Of a DNA stretch of 64,000 nucleotides, positions 42,082 to 47,940 are shown one piece after another (within the stretch, counting starts at the first letter, position 1; the number at the start of each line of letters is the position of its first letter). This DNA is from Aminobacterium sp. MB27-C1 (GTDB lineage: Bacteria; Synergistota; Synergistia; Synergistales; Aminobacteriaceae), in the NCBI RefSeq assembly GCF_030908405.1, contig NZ_CP133089.1, positions 806,001 through 870,000 on the forward strand. The letters run 5' to 3'. The notes beneath the pieces are model-generated. The model saw only the letters and a list, made by a program, of their open reading frames with translations. It was not told the origin of the DNA and did no database searches. The translations under genes were made by a program, and so were the position numbers.

Positions 42082-42174
42082 GGAGGGGTGGCCGAGTGGT
42101 CGAAGGCGATCGACTCGAAATCGATTAGGCGGCTAATACCTGCCTCGTGGGTTCAAATCCCACCCTCTCCGCCA
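42082..42174 (+). tRNA. tRNA-Ser(CGA)
   Basis: The 93-base cloverleaf has a long variable arm. The anticodon loop CTCGAAA contains CGA, the T-loop is TTCAAAT, and CCA is encoded. Confidence 0.95.
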
Positions 42175-42184
42175 GAAAATTATA

Positions 42185-42220
42185 AGAGAACTCCTGTTTA
42201 GACGGGGTTCTCTTTTTTTT
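42185..42220 (+). terminator. Intrinsic terminator after tRNA-Ser(CGA)
   Basis: AGAGAACTCC pairs with GGGGTTCTCT (G-U tolerated), followed by eight T residues. Confidence 0.8.
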
Positions 42221-42223
42221 AAC

Positions 42224-42252
42224 TTGACGGATATGTGGAAAAGTGGTAATCT
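42224..42252 (+). promoter_or_regulatory. Promoter of the aromatic leader/permease operon
   Basis: TTGACG (42224-42229) and TAATCT (42247-42252) are separated by 17 bases. The expected transcript start, around 42258-42261, is at or just before the leader ATG 42261. Confidence 0.75.
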
Positions 42253-42260
42253 TCCCTATC

Positions 42261-42353
42261 ATGAAGAAAACAAAGAAAATTCAAGAAATGCTTACAAGCT
42301 GTTTCTTTTATTATTGGTTTAGCGTGGGTCCCTCTCCGGGGGTCGACGCTTAA
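42261..42353 (+). CDS. Aromatic-residue leader peptide (transcription attenuator)
   Basis: A 30-codon ORF contains the run Cys-Phe-Phe-Tyr-Tyr-Trp-Phe at codons 14-20 (42300-42320). A strong promoter precedes it. A GC-rich terminator hairpin follows 20 bases after its stop, before the permease gene. This is the classic layout of a ribosome-mediated attenuator that responds to charged tRNA-Phe, -Tyr and -Trp. The promoter position would make ATG 42261 leaderless; the internal ATG 42288 (codon 10), preceded by a purine-rich stretch, could be the true start and still includes all control codons. Confidence 0.75.
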   Translation: MKKTKKIQEMLTSCFFYYWFSVGPSPGVDA

Positions 42354-42412
42354 TTGCGTTGATCTTTTAGGGCAGGGCCCCTTTCTTACAGAGAGAGGGG
42401 CCCTGTTTTTTT
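42321..42412 (+). terminator. Attenuator: alternative hairpins and intrinsic terminator
   Basis: The terminator has a perfect 10-bp stem, CAGGGCCCCT (42373-42382) with AGGGGCCCTG (42396-42405), then seven T residues. Upstream, AGCGT (42321-42325) can pair with ACGCT (42346-42350), exclusive with CGACGC/GCGTTG (42344-42349 with 42356-42361). GGGTCC (42326-42331) can also pair with GGGCCC (42375-42380), which would break the terminator. The exact switch is inferred, not folded by program. Confidence 0.75.
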
Positions 42413-42496
42413 ATACTTTTAGAGCGAGAAAAGAGGGTAGGTATTGAGCTCACAGCAATACGTTAACTAATTTACTTGATGAGGACGGTGAAAAGG

Positions 42497-43702
42497 ATGA
42501 AAAAGGATGCCCAAGGGGGTTCTATCATCTCTCAACTTTTAGATATTACGCAGGTTAAATGGTTTAGTCGTTGGCTCATGATCGGTTTTATTTGTCAGTC
42601 TGTTCTTATTGGTGGCGGTTATGCCACAGGACGAGAACTGGTTGAATTCTTTATGATGAATGGCCTTAAGCAGGGACTATATGGAATGGCTGTTTCCACA
42701 GTTTGTTTTGCCCTCGTAGGTATCCTGACCTTTGATTATGCACGAAAGTTCAGACTTTACAATTACCGAAGCTTCTTCCAGAGCCTCTTCCCGGGTGCGA
42801 CCTGGCTTGTTTTTGAGGTAGGCTATATCTTTCTTGTTGTTCTGGTTGGAGGAATTCTTTCTTCTGCAGCTGGTACCATTCTTCAGCAATGGTTTGGTGT
42901 TTCTTACTGGGTTGGAGTCTCCGTTCTTCTTGTAGGAACCTCCCTTCTGCTTTTTGCCGGAGGAAAAGTTATTTCCACCATTCTTTCATACTGGTCTTTC
43001 TTCCTTTACGCTGTTATGTTCATTTTCCTCTATTCTACTGTTCGTCATTTTGGTATGGACGGAGTGTTCGGCAGCTTAACGAGAGATCACGGAGTAGCTG
43101 CAAACTCGAATTGGATTATGGGAGGAATAAAGTATACCCTTTACAATATGGTGTCATTTGTTCTTGTTCTTTATGCATTAAAAGATACAATTAAAACAAG
43201 ACGAGACGCAGTAATTAATGGCATTGTCGCCTCTATACTCATGATGATCCCCGCTGTTGTAGAGTACTTGGCTATGGCTCCTACCTATCCATCCGTTTTG
43301 CAGGAATCGGTTCCCGTTTTCGGCATCCTTAAAAATGATCTTGGCGGAGGGGTATTACTTTCTGCTTATGTATTGATGCTTTTCGGAACAAGTATTGAAA
43401 CCATAACAGGTTTTGTCCATGGACTTAATGAACGAATCAATTCTGTCTACCAGGAAAAAGGACGAGAGATGTCTCATCGTATGAGAGGCGTAGTCGGGTT
43501 CGTTATATTGATTGTTTGTTTCATTTGTGCAAAAGCAGGGCTCGTTGCACTTATCGCTCGCGGCTATTCCATTATGGCATGGTATTTCCTCGTGGTTATG
43601 GTTTTGCCCTTGGCCACAGTTGGACTTATGCGTTTGCGTGGAAAAGAGTTGCCATCTGTTTCTGAAAATATAGAGGAGGCGAAGATCCATGTGGAACCCT
43701 AA
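42497..43702 (+). CDS. YkvI-family membrane transporter, probably for an aromatic amino acid or derivative
   Basis: This membrane protein of about 401 residues has 10-11 hydrophobic segments and resembles YkvI-type proteins of the amino-acid/polyamine/organocation superfamily (QSVLIGGGYATGRELVEFF near the first helix; GTSIETITGFVHGLNER near the tenth). A specific substrate is not known for the family. The aromatic leader upstream and the coupled aminotransferase suggest an aromatic amino acid or its keto acid. Starts at TTG 42476 or ATG 42479 lack a ribosome site; ATG 42497 has TGAGGACG upstream. Its end overlaps the aminotransferase by 14 bases. Confidence 0.7.
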   Translation: MKKDAQGGSIISQLLDITQVKWFSRWLMIGFICQSVLIGGGYATGRELVEFFMMNGLKQGLYGMAVSTVCFALVGILTFDYARKFRLYNYRSFFQSLFPGATWLVFEVGYIFLVVLVGGILSSAAGTILQQWFGVSYWVGVSVLLVGTSLLLFAGGKVISTILSYWSFFLYAVMFIFLYSTVRHFGMDGVFGSLTRDHGVAANSNWIMGGIKYTLYNMVSFVLVLYALKDTIKTRRDAVINGIVASILMMIPAVVEYLAMAPTYPSVLQESVPVFGILKNDLGGGVLLSAYVLMLFGTSIETITGFVHGLNERINSVYQEKGREMSHRMRGVVGFVILIVCFICAKAGLVALIARGYSIMAWYFLVVMVLPLATVGLMRLRGKELPSVSENIEEAKIHVEP

Positions 43703-44780
43703 AGTACGTGCTCATCTTCAAGACTTTGACAGAGAGAGTTATATTCACGAATCACACTGTCCCATAGTTTTGAACTGCAACGGACTTGAATCGACGTTGC
43801 CCCATGCTCCTGAAGTTGAGGCTTTTATAAAAAATTATGATTGGGTTTCAAATATGTGGAAAACGGGAGATACCTCATATAAAGCCTTGACTGAAGAAAT
43901 CTGTAATTACTGGAAAGACTTCGCAGACATTAGTGAAGAACAGATAAAAATAGGCTACGGTTCAATGCAGGTTCTTGAGCGGATTAATAAAGTCTTTCTT
44001 GATGAGCATGCAACGGTCTTGGGCTATGTGCCACAGTTCGTGGAATATATTACCGAAGTCAGAGTTTCCGGAGCACGTTTTGAAGGCATTGCCATGAGCC
44101 CTGAAGATAACTTTACGTTCCATGCCGATTCCCTTCTTGATGCTCTGAACGAGCGTCATACGTTGCTATATATAGATAATCCCAACAATCCAACGGGCCA
44201 GCTTATTCCTCTTGATGAAATTGAGGCGCTTGTTTCCAGAGCTCACGAATTAGGTGTTGTAGTTATCGTAGATGAGGCCTATGGCGATTATGCTCCTAAA
44301 GAAGCTTCGGCGGTACAGCTTCTACCTCGCTATGAAAATATTATTGTTACGCGAACGTTGACAAAGGGATTCCATTTTGCAGCAACCAGAATTGGGTATG
44401 GCATTTTCAGCGGAAGGCTTGGAGAATTTTATGATAAAGGAAACCTCCCCTTTGCGGTTCCGTCGGTAAGCGCTCTTTTGGCACGTGAGGCTCTTCGCGG
44501 GGGCTCTGTTTTAGACACTGTTCGCCAGATGATAAAGAAAGAGAAGGAAAGTCTTATCCCTGAGCTTGAAAAGAGAGGGTTTTCCGTGGCTTCCACCTAT
44601 ACATGTTGTCCCATATCTCTTGTCTCTGTAGAAGATCGAGATGTGGATTTGGCCCACCTTTTGGCAGAGAAGGGGATAGAGGTGCGTTCTGGCAAAGATT
44701 ACCCTCATTTAGGGAAAAATTATGTCAGAATTGCAACTCCGAAAAAAGCGTTAGATTTCTTTGCTTGCCTGGATCGGTAG
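43689..44780 (+). CDS. Class I/II aminotransferase (HisC-like fold)
   Basis: This 363-residue PLP enzyme has NPNNPTGQLIP for cofactor contact, VVIVDEAYGDYAP (Asp to pyridine nitrogen) and the Schiff-base lysine in TRTLTKGFHFAATRIGYG. A final NYVRIATP holds the carboxylate-binding Arg. It resembles histidinol-phosphate aminotransferases, many of which use aromatic amino acids. Its coupling to the permease (14-base overlap, GAGGAGGCG site) and to a Phe/Tyr/Trp attenuator supports aromatic transamination (inference). No other his genes are nearby. Confidence 0.82.
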   Translation: MWNPKVRAHLQDFDRESYIHESHCPIVLNCNGLESTLPHAPEVEAFIKNYDWVSNMWKTGDTSYKALTEEICNYWKDFADISEEQIKIGYGSMQVLERINKVFLDEHATVLGYVPQFVEYITEVRVSGARFEGIAMSPEDNFTFHADSLLDALNERHTLLYIDNPNNPTGQLIPLDEIEALVSRAHELGVVVIVDEAYGDYAPKEASAVQLLPRYENIIVTRTLTKGFHFAATRIGYGIFSGRLGEFYDKGNLPFAVPSVSALLAREALRGGSVLDTVRQMIKKEKESLIPELEKRGFSVASTYTCCPISLVSVEDRDVDLAHLLAEKGIEVRSGKDYPHLGKNYVRIATPKKALDFFACLDR

Positions 44781-44924: not shown

Positions 44925-45014
44925 GTGTGTAACGTAGAGGCTATAGTTGCTCTTATTCTTATACTTGCGCTCATTATTAGATGTCGGTCCTATCCTCGGG
45001 CGACAGTTCTGTAA
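44925..45014 (+). CDS. Branched-chain leader peptide (transcription attenuator)
   Basis: A 29-residue ORF begins at GTG 44925, seven bases after a strong AGGAGGG site, and ends at TAA 45012-45014. Codons 6-18 encode Ala-Ile-Val-Ala-Leu-Ile-Leu-Ile-Leu-Ala-Leu-Ile-Ile: five Ile, four Leu and one Val in thirteen codons. A terminator follows. This matches ilv/leu-type leaders that sense charged branched-chain tRNAs. The hydrophobic run could also suggest a tiny membrane peptide, but the promoter, terminator and alternative pairing favour attenuation. Confidence 0.78.
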   Translation: MCNVEAIVALILILALIIRCRSYPRATVL

Positions 45015-45064
45015 CGTATGGGCTGTACAGAGGTCGGGACCTTAAGGTTCCGACCTCTTTTTTT
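45008..45064 (+). terminator. Attenuator terminator with competing antiterminator stem
   Basis: AGAGGTCGGGACC (45029-45041) pairs with GGTTCCGACCTCT (45046-45058), one G-U pair, TTAA loop, then a T-run. TCTGTA (45008-45013) pairs perfectly with TACAGA (45026-45031), overlapping the terminator base. GGTCCT (44986-44991) could also pair with the GGGACC inside the terminator stem. Stalled ribosomes in the leader would therefore change terminator formation (inference). Confidence 0.78.
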
Positions 45065-45147: not shown

Positions 45148-46638
45148 ATGAACTTTTTGCTTGCGTTGTTGCCCATTGCAATAATTGTTGTCGGAATGGC
45201 AGGATTTAATTACCCATCAAAGGTTGTTGCGCCGATAAGCTGGATTGTAGCTCTCTTTTTCGGAAATGTTGTTTTTAAAACGCCTCTTATGAATTTGGCG
45301 CAGACGAGTTGGAATGGTTTTTTGGACGGAGTTCGTATTGTATGGCTTATTTTTGCCGCCTTTACTCTTCTCATCGTTATGGTGGATTCAACGGCTATGG
45401 ATTCCATAAAACGTGGTCTTTCAAAGGTTACAAGAGATAAAAGACTTATGGTCTTATTTTTAGCTATTCCCTTCGGAACCTTTCTTGAAGGAGCGGCAGG
45501 AGCAGGGGCTCCAGCTGCGTTGGCGGCTCCTTTTCTCGTTGGACTTGGTATGAACCCTGTCATTGCTGCGGCAGCCTGTCTTATCGGGAATTCATGTCCT
45601 GTAAGCTGGGGTGGAGCTGGTGTAACCACCGTTGTCGGATCTGGTGCGGCCGGCCTTGATTTCGTGCCAGTTTCCGTTATGACTGGTAAAATGATGTCGT
45701 TGGGATATATATTGCTCCCAATCCTGATCATTGGTTTTGTTTTTGGGAAAAAGGCTTTTAGAGGCATATGGAAAGACGTACTTGTTATGGGATTTGTTAT
45801 GGGGAGCATAAACTTTACGATGAGCAACGTCTTTATTCCCGTTACAGAACTCACAAGCCTAATCGGTGGAATGGCAGGAACTTTTGTCTTTGGAGCGTAT
45901 CTTTGGCTTCGAAAAAATGCTTCAGTTCCACAAGAATATGCGTTCTCTTCTCCAGACAACGATGAAACGTTACAAAATCCTCGTTTTAGTTTTCTTCGGT
46001 CTTTGTTGCCATACTTTATCTTAAGTATTTTGCTTGTAGTTGTACGGCTTTCTTTCTCATTAAAAACTCTCGTATCCTTCGGAGGCGGGTACACAGTTTG
46101 GGTGGGCTGTGTTGTTTTAACAAGCGCTTTCTTAGCATCTATACTATTGGGATACAGTAAGTTTTTCTTGGCATCTGCTCTTAAAGCTTTTAAGCGGGTA
46201 ATCCCTGCTCTCATTTCAATGGGCTTGCTTTTGGCCATGGTCAATTGCATGAAACTTTCTGGGCAAATCAGCACTCTTGCTGTGACTTTTGCTACGATTG
46301 GCAGTTTGTTCTACCCTGCAGTTGCCGTACTTATCGGTCAAATAGGAAGTTTTGTTACAGGAACAAACCTCGGGTCAAATCTTATGTTTAATCCGTTGCA
46401 TGTGGAAGCTGCAAAAAATCTTTCCATAAATGTGTTGCCTGTTGTAGCAGCTCAAAACACAGGTGGAGCTATTGGAAACATGATATGCCCAAATAACGTG
46501 GTGGCAGTGTGTGCATGTGTGGCTATATTGGGAAGGGAAGGAGAAGTTATGCGAAAAACACTTCTTCCATCTATCTGCTTTCTCTTTTTCTTTGGTTTCT
46601 TAGCCATGGTGTACACCTACGTAATTTTTCCTGCATGA
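45148..46638 (+). CDS. L-lactate permease (LctP)-family transporter
   Basis: This 496-residue transporter has about 12-14 membrane segments. Family signatures include FGTFLEGAAGAGAPAALAAPFLVGLG, IGNSCPVSWGGAGVTTVVGSGAA and the late GQIGSFVTGTNLGSNLMF and QNTGGAIGNMICPNNVVA. LctP members carry lactate, glycolate and related 2-hydroxyacids. The GGAGGA site fits ATG 45148. It is expressed only if the branched-chain attenuator is passed. The LarA-like racemase follows after 12 bases. Confidence 0.88.
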   Translation: MNFLLALLPIAIIVVGMAGFNYPSKVVAPISWIVALFFGNVVFKTPLMNLAQTSWNGFLDGVRIVWLIFAAFTLLIVMVDSTAMDSIKRGLSKVTRDKRLMVLFLAIPFGTFLEGAAGAGAPAALAAPFLVGLGMNPVIAAAACLIGNSCPVSWGGAGVTTVVGSGAAGLDFVPVSVMTGKMMSLGYILLPILIIGFVFGKKAFRGIWKDVLVMGFVMGSINFTMSNVFIPVTELTSLIGGMAGTFVFGAYLWLRKNASVPQEYAFSSPDNDETLQNPRFSFLRSLLPYFILSILLVVVRLSFSLKTLVSFGGGYTVWVGCVVLTSAFLASILLGYSKFFLASALKAFKRVIPALISMGLLLAMVNCMKLSGQISTLAVTFATIGSLFYPAVAVLIGQIGSFVTGTNLGSNLMFNPLHVEAAKNLSINVLPVVAAQNTGGAIGNMICPNNVVAVCACVAILGREGEVMRKTLLPSICFLFFFGFLAMVYTYVIFPA

Positions 46639-46650
46639 GGAGGAGTATCA

Positions 46651-47940
46651 ATGTATTCGTATACCATGAAATACGGAAAGGGGAACATCGATTTTTCTAT
46701 CCCGCAGAAAAATCTTCTGGGGATTATCGATAGCGAACCAATCGAAAGTATCGGTTCTGAAGAGGAAATCATCGTTCAGGCTCTTGAAAATCCTATTGGA
46801 TCTCCAAAACTTGGCGAACTCGTAAAACCTGGAGAGACAGTATGTATTATTGTTTCTGACATTACACGGGCTTGGCAGCGAATGTGGGTATATTTGCCCT
46901 TTATAGTCAAAGAACTTCGTAATGCAGGCATTCGCGACGAAGACATACTTTTTTTGAGCTCTACGGGAACTCATCGGGAACAAACTCAGGAGGAACACGC
47001 TCTTTTACTTGGCGAGGAACTTTCGAAAACGTTCGAGGTTGTCGATCATAAATGTCTAGATCATGACGATATGGTTCATATTGGAACGACTTCCTACGGG
47101 ACTCCTGTAAAGGTGAATAAAAGGGCTCTAGAATGCGATCATATCATTGTTACTGGTGCCATTATTTATCACTTTATGGCTGGATGGGGAGGCGGTCGAA
47201 AAGGAATTTTACCCGGAATTTCTTCTTATGAAACCGTTATGGCCAATCACGCTTTGGCGTTAGATCCTGTTCCTGGTAATGGCCGAAATATGAACAGCAG
47301 ACCAGGGAATTTTGAAAACAACCTTATGCATCTTGATATGATGGAAGCAGCGGCAATGGTCAAGCCAACGTTTATGTTTAACGTTATTCCTGGTAACGAT
47401 GGAAAGATAGGTTTCGCCGTGGCCGGAGATTGGGAAAAAGCTTTCTACGAAGGGGCTAAGATTGTAGATAAGAAAGATGGCGTCGTTATTTCAGAATTGG
47501 GAGACCTTGTTATAGCGACAGCTGGTGGATATCCCAAAGATATCAACTTTTACCAGACATCGAAAACTATTTTTAATGCCATGGAAGCGGTTCCTCAAGG
47601 GGGATCTATTATCGTATTAAGTGCGTGCAATGAAGGATATGGTAACGATGAAGTCCAATTCATGCTCCAGAAGTTTCCAAATACAGCGGAACGAGAAAAG
47701 GAAGTTCGTCGAGAATTTACTATTGCCAAATATGTTGGCTACACCATTGGTTATGTTGCTGAAAATTGGGATTTCTATTTGGTTTCAGAAATGTCGCCTA
47801 CAGAATTTGAAGGTACAGGTATTACTGTGGTTAAAAGCCTTGATGAAGCTCTTAACCAGGTTTATGATAAGCATGGTAATCAACTTAAGACATGGTTTAT
47901 GCCTCACGGAGCAAATACCCTGCCAAAACTAAAAAAATAA
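46651..47940 (+). CDS. LarA-family nickel-pincer 2-hydroxyacid racemase
   Basis: This 429-residue enzyme keeps the residues known from Lactobacillus plantarum LarA at the same numbering: His108 (SSTGTHRE), His174 and the pincer lysine Lys184 (YHFMAGWGGGRKGILPG), and His200. The NAD-like pincer cofactor and nickel should therefore bind. Family members racemise lactate, malate, phenyllactate or aliphatic 2-hydroxyacids. The adjacent permease and branched-chain leader suggest a branched-chain or lactate-type substrate, but this is not provable by reading. No larB, larC or larE is in the window, so cofactor synthesis must be elsewhere. GGAGGAG precedes ATG. Confidence 0.88.
   Translation: MYSYTMKYGKGNIDFSIPQKNLLGIIDSEPIESIGSEEEIIVQALENPIGSPKLGELVKPGETVCIIVSDITRAWQRMWVYLPFIVKELRNAGIRDEDILFLSSTGTHREQTQEEHALLLGEELSKTFEVVDHKCLDHDDMVHIGTTSYGTPVKVNKRALECDHIIVTGAIIYHFMAGWGGGRKGILPGISSYETVMANHALALDPVPGNGRNMNSRPGNFENNLMHLDMMEAAAMVKPTFMFNVIPGNDGKIGFAVAGDWEKAFYEGAKIVDKKDGVVISELGDLVIATAGGYPKDINFYQTSKTIFNAMEAVPQGGSIIVLSACNEGYGNDEVQFMLQKFPNTAEREKEVRREFTIAKYVGYTIGYVAENWDFYLVSEMSPTEFEGTGITVVKSLDEALNQVYDKHGNQLKTWFMPHGANTLPKLKK

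Follow-up and report, generated by a model that had tools for sequence, protein, structure and literature searches.

Why should a short open reading frame (ORF) with a run of Phe, Tyr and Trp codons stand in front of a permease gene and an aminotransferase gene in Aminobacterium sp. MB27-C1 (Synergistota), and what does it say about the function of these genes? The locus lies in a stretch of 64,000 nucleotides (nt), called the window hereafter, which covers positions 806001-870000 of a complete genome of 2.43 Mb. The leader region is very probably a ribosome-mediated transcription attenuator for aromatic amino acids, and the operon behind it most likely raises the aromatic supply. A tRNA-Ser gene is situated upstream (42082-42174), and promoter, leader ORF and terminator sit between it and the permease gene. 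The features, in window coordinates, are the following.

42224-42252, + strand: promoter, with TTGACG at 42224-42229, a 17-nt spacer and TAATCT at 42247-42252
42261-42353, + strand: leader ORF of 30 codons, from ATG 42261 to the stop codon TAA at 42351-42353, MKKTKKIQEMLTSCFFYYWFSVGPSPGVDA, with orthologues in relatives
42303-42320, + strand: control codons Phe-Phe-Tyr-Tyr-Trp-Phe, seen in the sequence and backed by the F/Y/W enrichment in 20 leaders
42326-42337, + strand: S1, 5' half of the predicted antiterminator, GGGTCCCTCTCC, within the 3' end of the leader ORF (folding and pairing tests)
42341-42364, + strand: inner hairpin GGTCGACGC/GCGTTGATC, part of the predicted antiterminator, the hairpin loop containing the stop codon of the leader, kept in both sister species
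42370-42381, + strand: S3, GGGCAGGGCCCC, 3' half of the predicted antiterminator and simultaneously 5' arm of the terminator
42369-42412, + strand: intrinsic terminator, consisting of a hairpin (42369-42409) and a run of seven T (42406-42412)
42497-43702, + strand: permease of predicted LeuT/APC-type fold, start ATG 42497, longest ORF from TTG 42476
43689-44780, + strand: HisC-like class I/II aminotransferase (PF00155, 134.9 bits; TIGR01141, 180.3 bits)

Results

The original prediction had described a 30-codon leader with the run Cys-Phe-Phe-Tyr-Tyr-Trp-Phe, and the CFFYYWF codons are indeed found at 42300-42320 of the leader ORF. The promoter ahead of it was not listed by a simple sigma-70 scan, which asks for 9/12 matches; it was called from the sequence itself and from its conservation in three species, the two sister species displaying the same spacing (TTGACG-17-TATGGT-8-ATG and TTGACG-17-TAATCT-8-ATG). 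In all three species of the genus eight bases separate the -10 hexamer from the leader ATG, the A of which is thus base nine, and no Shine-Dalgarno (SD) sequence precedes this ATG. Transcription from the sixth or ninth base past the hexamer would leave a 5' untranslated region (UTR) of 3 or 0 nt. The conserved spacing thus suggests a near-leaderless mRNA with a 5' UTR of about 0-3 nt in this genus, in agreement with one of the two options proposed at the outset. The other option, initiation at codon 10 (ATG 42288), was rejected, as this codon is not kept in the two sister species (MKNIEKTQETL, MKNREKIHEIL), which makes ATG 42261 the better start.

The terminator has the predicted GC-rich core of 10 bp, CAGGGCCCCT/AGGGGCCCTG, followed by the seven T, and its region folds far better than shuffled sequences (z -5.35). 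The alternative fold, computed with the transcript cut at the terminator loop, consists of the S1/S3 pairing stacked on the inner hairpin; it reaches -31.4 kcal/mol, with a z of about -4 against mononucleotide shuffles. When RNAalifold was applied to the full leader set, it mixed the two competing folds and recovered mainly the terminator, and the pairing was therefore tested by permutation. The summed duplex energy of the leaders' own S1 and S3 halves is -403 kcal/mol as compared to -351 ± 12 kcal/mol for permuted partners, and none of 20000 permutations was as low; related leaders are among those paired and are not independent, so this result is no clean probability. The competition between antiterminator and terminator is also found in the orthologous leaders, being weak in that of genome G070. 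The mutually exclusive hairpins of the original prediction are thereby reproduced in silico, and the antiterminator is predicted to exclude the terminator and to be conserved by pairing.

Of 59 relatives, 29 have a permease orthologue; a more stringent threshold, applied to 185 Synergistota genomes, gave 35 with one. From the upstream regions of these orthologues in the correct orientation, 20 leaders were read. These comprise the sister-species leaders RFFLYWFSVGPSPGIDA and GFFYFYFSVGPSPGIDA and the more distant NWFYYFGTPDGSPP, GWFIYFGCSDGTPL, CWFYYFNIHGGIPS and YFYGYFFYFALGSPSWRG. The aromatic run recurs in them: among the ten codons before the RNA motif, Phe, Tyr and Trp together account for 41% in frame as compared to 14% and 23% in the other frames, and 82 aromatic codons were observed against 38 ± 4.6 after shuffling. 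Phe and Tyr are nearly universal in these leaders, and the Cys of the window's run is not conserved. One leader ORF, in genome G007, has no stop codon ahead of the terminator as assembled.

Genome G178 carries two permease copies behind the same RNA scaffold, of which the first leader reads YFYGYFFYF and the second, before the paralogous permease, VNIIILLS, that is, III-LL instead of the aromatic run. Nearly identical scaffolds with III-LL codons occur on contig C7 of G178, where the permease paralogue follows, and on contig C211 of genome G179, where an SSS symporter and an amidohydrolase of N-acyl-amino-acid-deacylase type follow; their likeness points to a recent duplication of the attenuator.

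Models built from the permease leaders (R1, R2) and one trained on sequence only, with 17 leaders of different kinds (R3), revealed many further leaders in Synergistota, with the provisos that E-values are rough, that training leaders match by construction and that some of the weaker hits are terminators only. The leader peptides contain SLSLLLLG before leuA (2-isopropylmalate synthase), TITTMTT in the own genome and TTTTTMTT in a sister species before hom (homoserine dehydrogenase), MMMCMC before metN of a MetN-type ABC transporter, LVLVLIS and IIIAIIII before ilvN (acetolactate synthase small subunit), IIIIAIII and LALILLVVLIL before ilvC (ketol-acid reductoisomerase) and VVVVV before panB and a class IV aminotransferase. 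FFFSFFF precedes a substrate-binding-protein (SBP)-like gene followed by 3-deoxy-D-arabino-heptulosonate 7-phosphate (DAHP) synthase and 5-enolpyruvylshikimate 3-phosphate (EPSP) synthase, chorismate synthase being located 1-2 kb beyond. The codons agree with the pathway in every leader read whose biosynthetic target was identifiable; this comparison was not blind, and it did not score weak hits that had no clear leader ORF. The agreement among these sibling leaders calibrates the window leader as an attenuator responding to aromatic starvation and, together with the orthologous leaders, supports the aromatic attenuation originally proposed.

These observations bear on one alternative, namely that the terminator is constitutive or non-aromatic and the aromatic run belongs to a hydrophobic small protein or a chance ORF with no regulation. 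A single T-rich stretch can give Phe and Tyr codons, and the G070 leader has no aromatic codon at all. The in-frame enrichment in 20 leaders, the matched S1/S3 pairing, the codon exchange in the G178 paralogue and the agreement of sibling codons with their pathways all speak against such an origin, which is consequently considered highly improbable.

The 3' end of the leader ORF is conserved in a different manner. From leader to leader a GGGnCC motif falls in any of the three codon frames, in a ratio of 15/4/1 among the 20 permease leaders and in frames 0, 1 and 2 elsewhere, and the peptides encoded in this region are unrelated (VGPSPG, SGAPS, GPLWRA, RVLPGV), which indicates conservation of the RNA and not of the peptide. 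In a rival reading, the leader encodes an arrest peptide similar to TnaC that senses free aromatic amino acid: its nascent chain with a Pro-containing C-terminus would stall the ribosome when an aromatic compound is abundant and induce the operon for catabolism. Synergistota ferment amino acids, and the GSPPG end of many leaders could slow ribosomes. Besides the conservation of the C-terminal element as RNA, the control codons track the regulated pathway, biosynthetic operons included, as sensing of starvation predicts, and an arrest peptide appears improbable.

SD sequences of GGAGG type precede the leaders of the other families and the other leaders of the own genome, as read; the SD-less spacing was found only in the permease leaders of the own genus, among the leaders read closely. 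The idea that the element is tied to the permease family everywhere was dropped, since about 70 homologous permease loci of other phyla gave no convincing scaffold match (best E outside Synergistota 0.04), and no T-box control of permease homologues was found among the clostridial loci tested. In genome G041 two tandem copies of the same Ile-type leader (contig C8, 513411 and 513651) precede ilvC; the second copy contains a stretch of N, and the arrangement is possibly an assembly artefact.

ATG 42497, after GAGGACGGTGAAAAG, is the most likely start of the permease, in preference to TTG 42476, and the permease ORF overlaps that of the aminotransferase at 43689-43702. No Pfam or NCBIfam model matches the permease and it has no sequence relative among solved structures; the name YkvI is unconfirmed, and its plasmid homologues mostly carry the annotation hypothetical protein. 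Its AlphaFold2 model, which is of moderate confidence (predicted local distance difference test score, pLDDT, 72), matched AdiC, BasC, LAT1, MhsT and CodB in Foldseek (best E 6e-5, template modelling (TM) score 0.5-0.66, AdiC being the top match), and the protein is accordingly predicted to be a LeuT/APC-fold transporter. The aminotransferase is of class I/II by PF00155 and nearest to HisC, as had been stated, but its 180.3 bits fall below the TIGR01141 cut-off of 276.55. It lies behind the permease on the same strand in the genus studied here and in a few further relatives; elsewhere among the relatives a class III aminotransferase takes this place. The permease-aminotransferase link appears recurrent from gene order, and leader control reaches co-directional genes only.

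At least nine leaders of the Synergistota family are present in the own genome, including six hits outside the training set (genome positions 2166598, 2156810, 1537792, 1637671, 1605020 and 230776). Seven of the eight R3 leaders of this genome, all except that of leuA, show pairing between the last part of the leader ORF and the terminator 5' arm. Two further leaders have aromatic codons. At 764366-764471 of the genome, the leader MQKNMVLSNSFYFYFWFTDGDSPEVVSL with the run FYFYFWF, the second Phe/Tyr/Trp leader of this genome, precedes an SSS-family sodium/solute symporter and an Ldh_2 dehydrogenase; the leader at 1605020-1605106 contains CFFEYYY and precedes a phenylacetate-CoA-ligase-like gene, and a TrpB-like gene is located nearby.

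No match to prephenate dehydratase, TrpA or chorismate synthase was obtained in the complete own genome, and all three were detected in 14 of 14 control genomes; chorismate synthase was not found in the two sister species either. The lack of these three enzymes makes uptake or salvage a more likely role of the operon than synthesis. A salvage of aryl acids and indole to Phe, Tyr and Trp would fit the missing genes, with the presumed substrates of the enzymes.

Behind a second permease paralogue (genome positions 232782-233891), 30% identical and with no recognised leader, come first a class III aminotransferase and then the MMMCMC leader with metN. Five T-box-like matches below the Rfam cut-off (935952, 1533344, 1388950, 2005022 and 2273454; best 92.1 bits against 93) suggest that this genome may use T-boxes alongside leader peptides. 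The ninth leader, which the models missed, lies in the window behind the aminotransferase gene:

44925-45060, + strand: second window leader and its terminator (terminator 45029-45058); leader ORF 44925-45014, VCNVEAIVALILILALIIRCRSYPRATVL and stop, SD sequence GAGGAGGG, competing fold z -2.4
45148-46638, + strand: LctP-type permease, directly after the second window leader
46651-47940, + strand: LarAH10-like 2-hydroxyacid racemase, after the LctP-type permease

The Leu and Ile codons of this leader suggest branched-chain 2-hydroxy acids as substrates of its operon; LarAH10 enzymes have hydrophobic 2-hydroxy acids as substrates (PMC11770544).

Discussion

The proposed mechanism follows the stalling and stop-codon logic of usual leader-peptide attenuation. 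The start of transcription would coincide with the leader ATG or lie no more than about 3 nt from it. A shortage of charged tRNA-Phe, -Tyr or -Trp would stall the ribosome in FFYYWF; most of the alternative fold would then stay accessible, and S1 (42326-42337) would be free to pair, together with the inner hairpin, with S3 (42370-42381); this pairing would block the terminator, and permease and aminotransferase would be transcribed. When aromatic amino acids are plentiful, the ribosome would reach the stop codon inside the antiterminator and cover S1, so that the terminator forms. The permease may import an aromatic amino acid or its 2-oxo acid, the aminotransferase would interconvert the two, and the operon would thereby raise the aromatic supply in a bacterium unable to make these amino acids.

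The same attenuator might instead govern disposal, that is, export of aromatic amino acids or aryl acids coupled with fermentative transamination. This organism is among the amino-acid fermenters, LeuT-fold transporters can be antiporters, and AdiC is the top fold match of the permease. De-repression upon shortage of charged tRNA would have the wrong sign for disposal, however, and the sibling leaders precede biosynthetic genes and a MetN-type uptake system; disposal is therefore regarded as unlikely, though less so than an arrest peptide.

Several observations weigh against an aromatic-starvation attenuator serving supply. The outer antiterminator pairing of the window, taken by itself, is not significant against composition shuffles (fraction 0.15), and it is the comparative evidence, rather than this pairing, that carries the case for the window antiterminator. 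No SD sequence lies upstream of the window leader, several permease orthologues have no recognisable leader, and the G070 leader combines a weak antiterminator with its lack of aromatic codons. Trp was counted by eye in only nine of the 20 orthologous leaders; the combination of Phe, Tyr and Trp originally claimed is thus upheld for Phe and Tyr, with Trp missing in about half of the orthologues. The supposition that the leaders are confined to aromatic auxotrophs was abandoned, as they are present in genomes with chorismate synthase as well as in those without. In most relatives having the aminotransferase, its homologue converges on the permease from the other strand. A direct functional assignment of both genes, as first put forward, is hence too strong; the leader codons lend good support to assigning the permease to aromatic compounds, but say little about its exact substrate, which may be an amino acid or a 2-oxo acid, or about the direction of transport.

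The best-described leader-peptide attenuators are those of Proteobacteria and Actinobacteria. The proteobacterial trp, phe, his, thr and ilv leaders (trpL, pheL, thrL) include multi-residue ones, such as Thr/Ile for thr and Leu/Val/Ile for ilv. The window element resembles them in its run of control codons, its antiterminator competing with an intrinsic terminator and its leader ORF just past the promoter. It differs in having all three aromatic residues in one run, in a predicted antiterminator that joins the last part of the leader ORF to the 5' arm of the terminator around an inner hairpin, and in preceding a transporter-aminotransferase operon in an organism without the end of the shikimate pathway. 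No Rfam family reaches its gathering cut-off at the leader (Phe_leader, RF01859, 19.7 bits against 55), and the T-box RF00230 gave no match at 42180-42480.

The leader mRNA begins at the leader ATG in trpL of S. meliloti (PMC7298713) and in trpL1, leuL1 and leuL2 of S. lividans (PMC8079986); the window leader is probably similar to these near-leaderless attenuators, as judged from promoter spacing. An aromatic attenuator of C. glutamicum (Neshat et al. 2014, as cited in PMC8079986) and uORFC-13-1 before aroF in Acholeplasma (PMC8632094) likewise combine an aromatic-codon leader ORF and a terminator with a link to aromatic supply. Both differ in their biosynthetic target, phylum and RNA, and neither is known to belong to a family with exchangeable control codons. 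Stav et al. 2019 (PMC6429828), whose survey covered the Synergistota species Thermovirga lienii, reported two F/Y upstream ORF (uORF) candidates with shikimate genes; the main text does not name the genome of these uORFs. They share Phe and Tyr codons with the window leader and are possibly a related element, in which case part of the present family would have been discovered before. No report of such leaders in Synergistota was found in the open-access literature. The attenuator is thus of a known kind, and its phylum-wide variant with exchangeable control codons is apparently undescribed.

Taken together, the data somewhat favour a wider, two-part proposal. An ancestral Synergistota scaffold would have been copied to many operons and retargeted by exchange of its control codons, so that the codon run names the amino acid which the operon behind it handles, orphan transporters included; and the aromatic branch, comprising the window operon, the PaaK-type ligase and the SSS symporter with the Ldh_2-type dehydrogenase, would form a salvage regulon through which bacteria devoid of the shikimate pathway turn aryl acids into Phe, Tyr and Trp.

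Conclusions

If these readings are true, the control codons would predict, from the sequence only, which amino acid is served by a transporter or enzyme of unknown role, and leuA, hom, metN, ilvN, ilvC and panB would serve as positive controls within these genomes. The transporter family, whose substrate is so far unknown, would be assigned to aromatic compounds, and the locus would show how an amino-acid fermenter without the end of the shikimate pathway may manage its aromatic supply.

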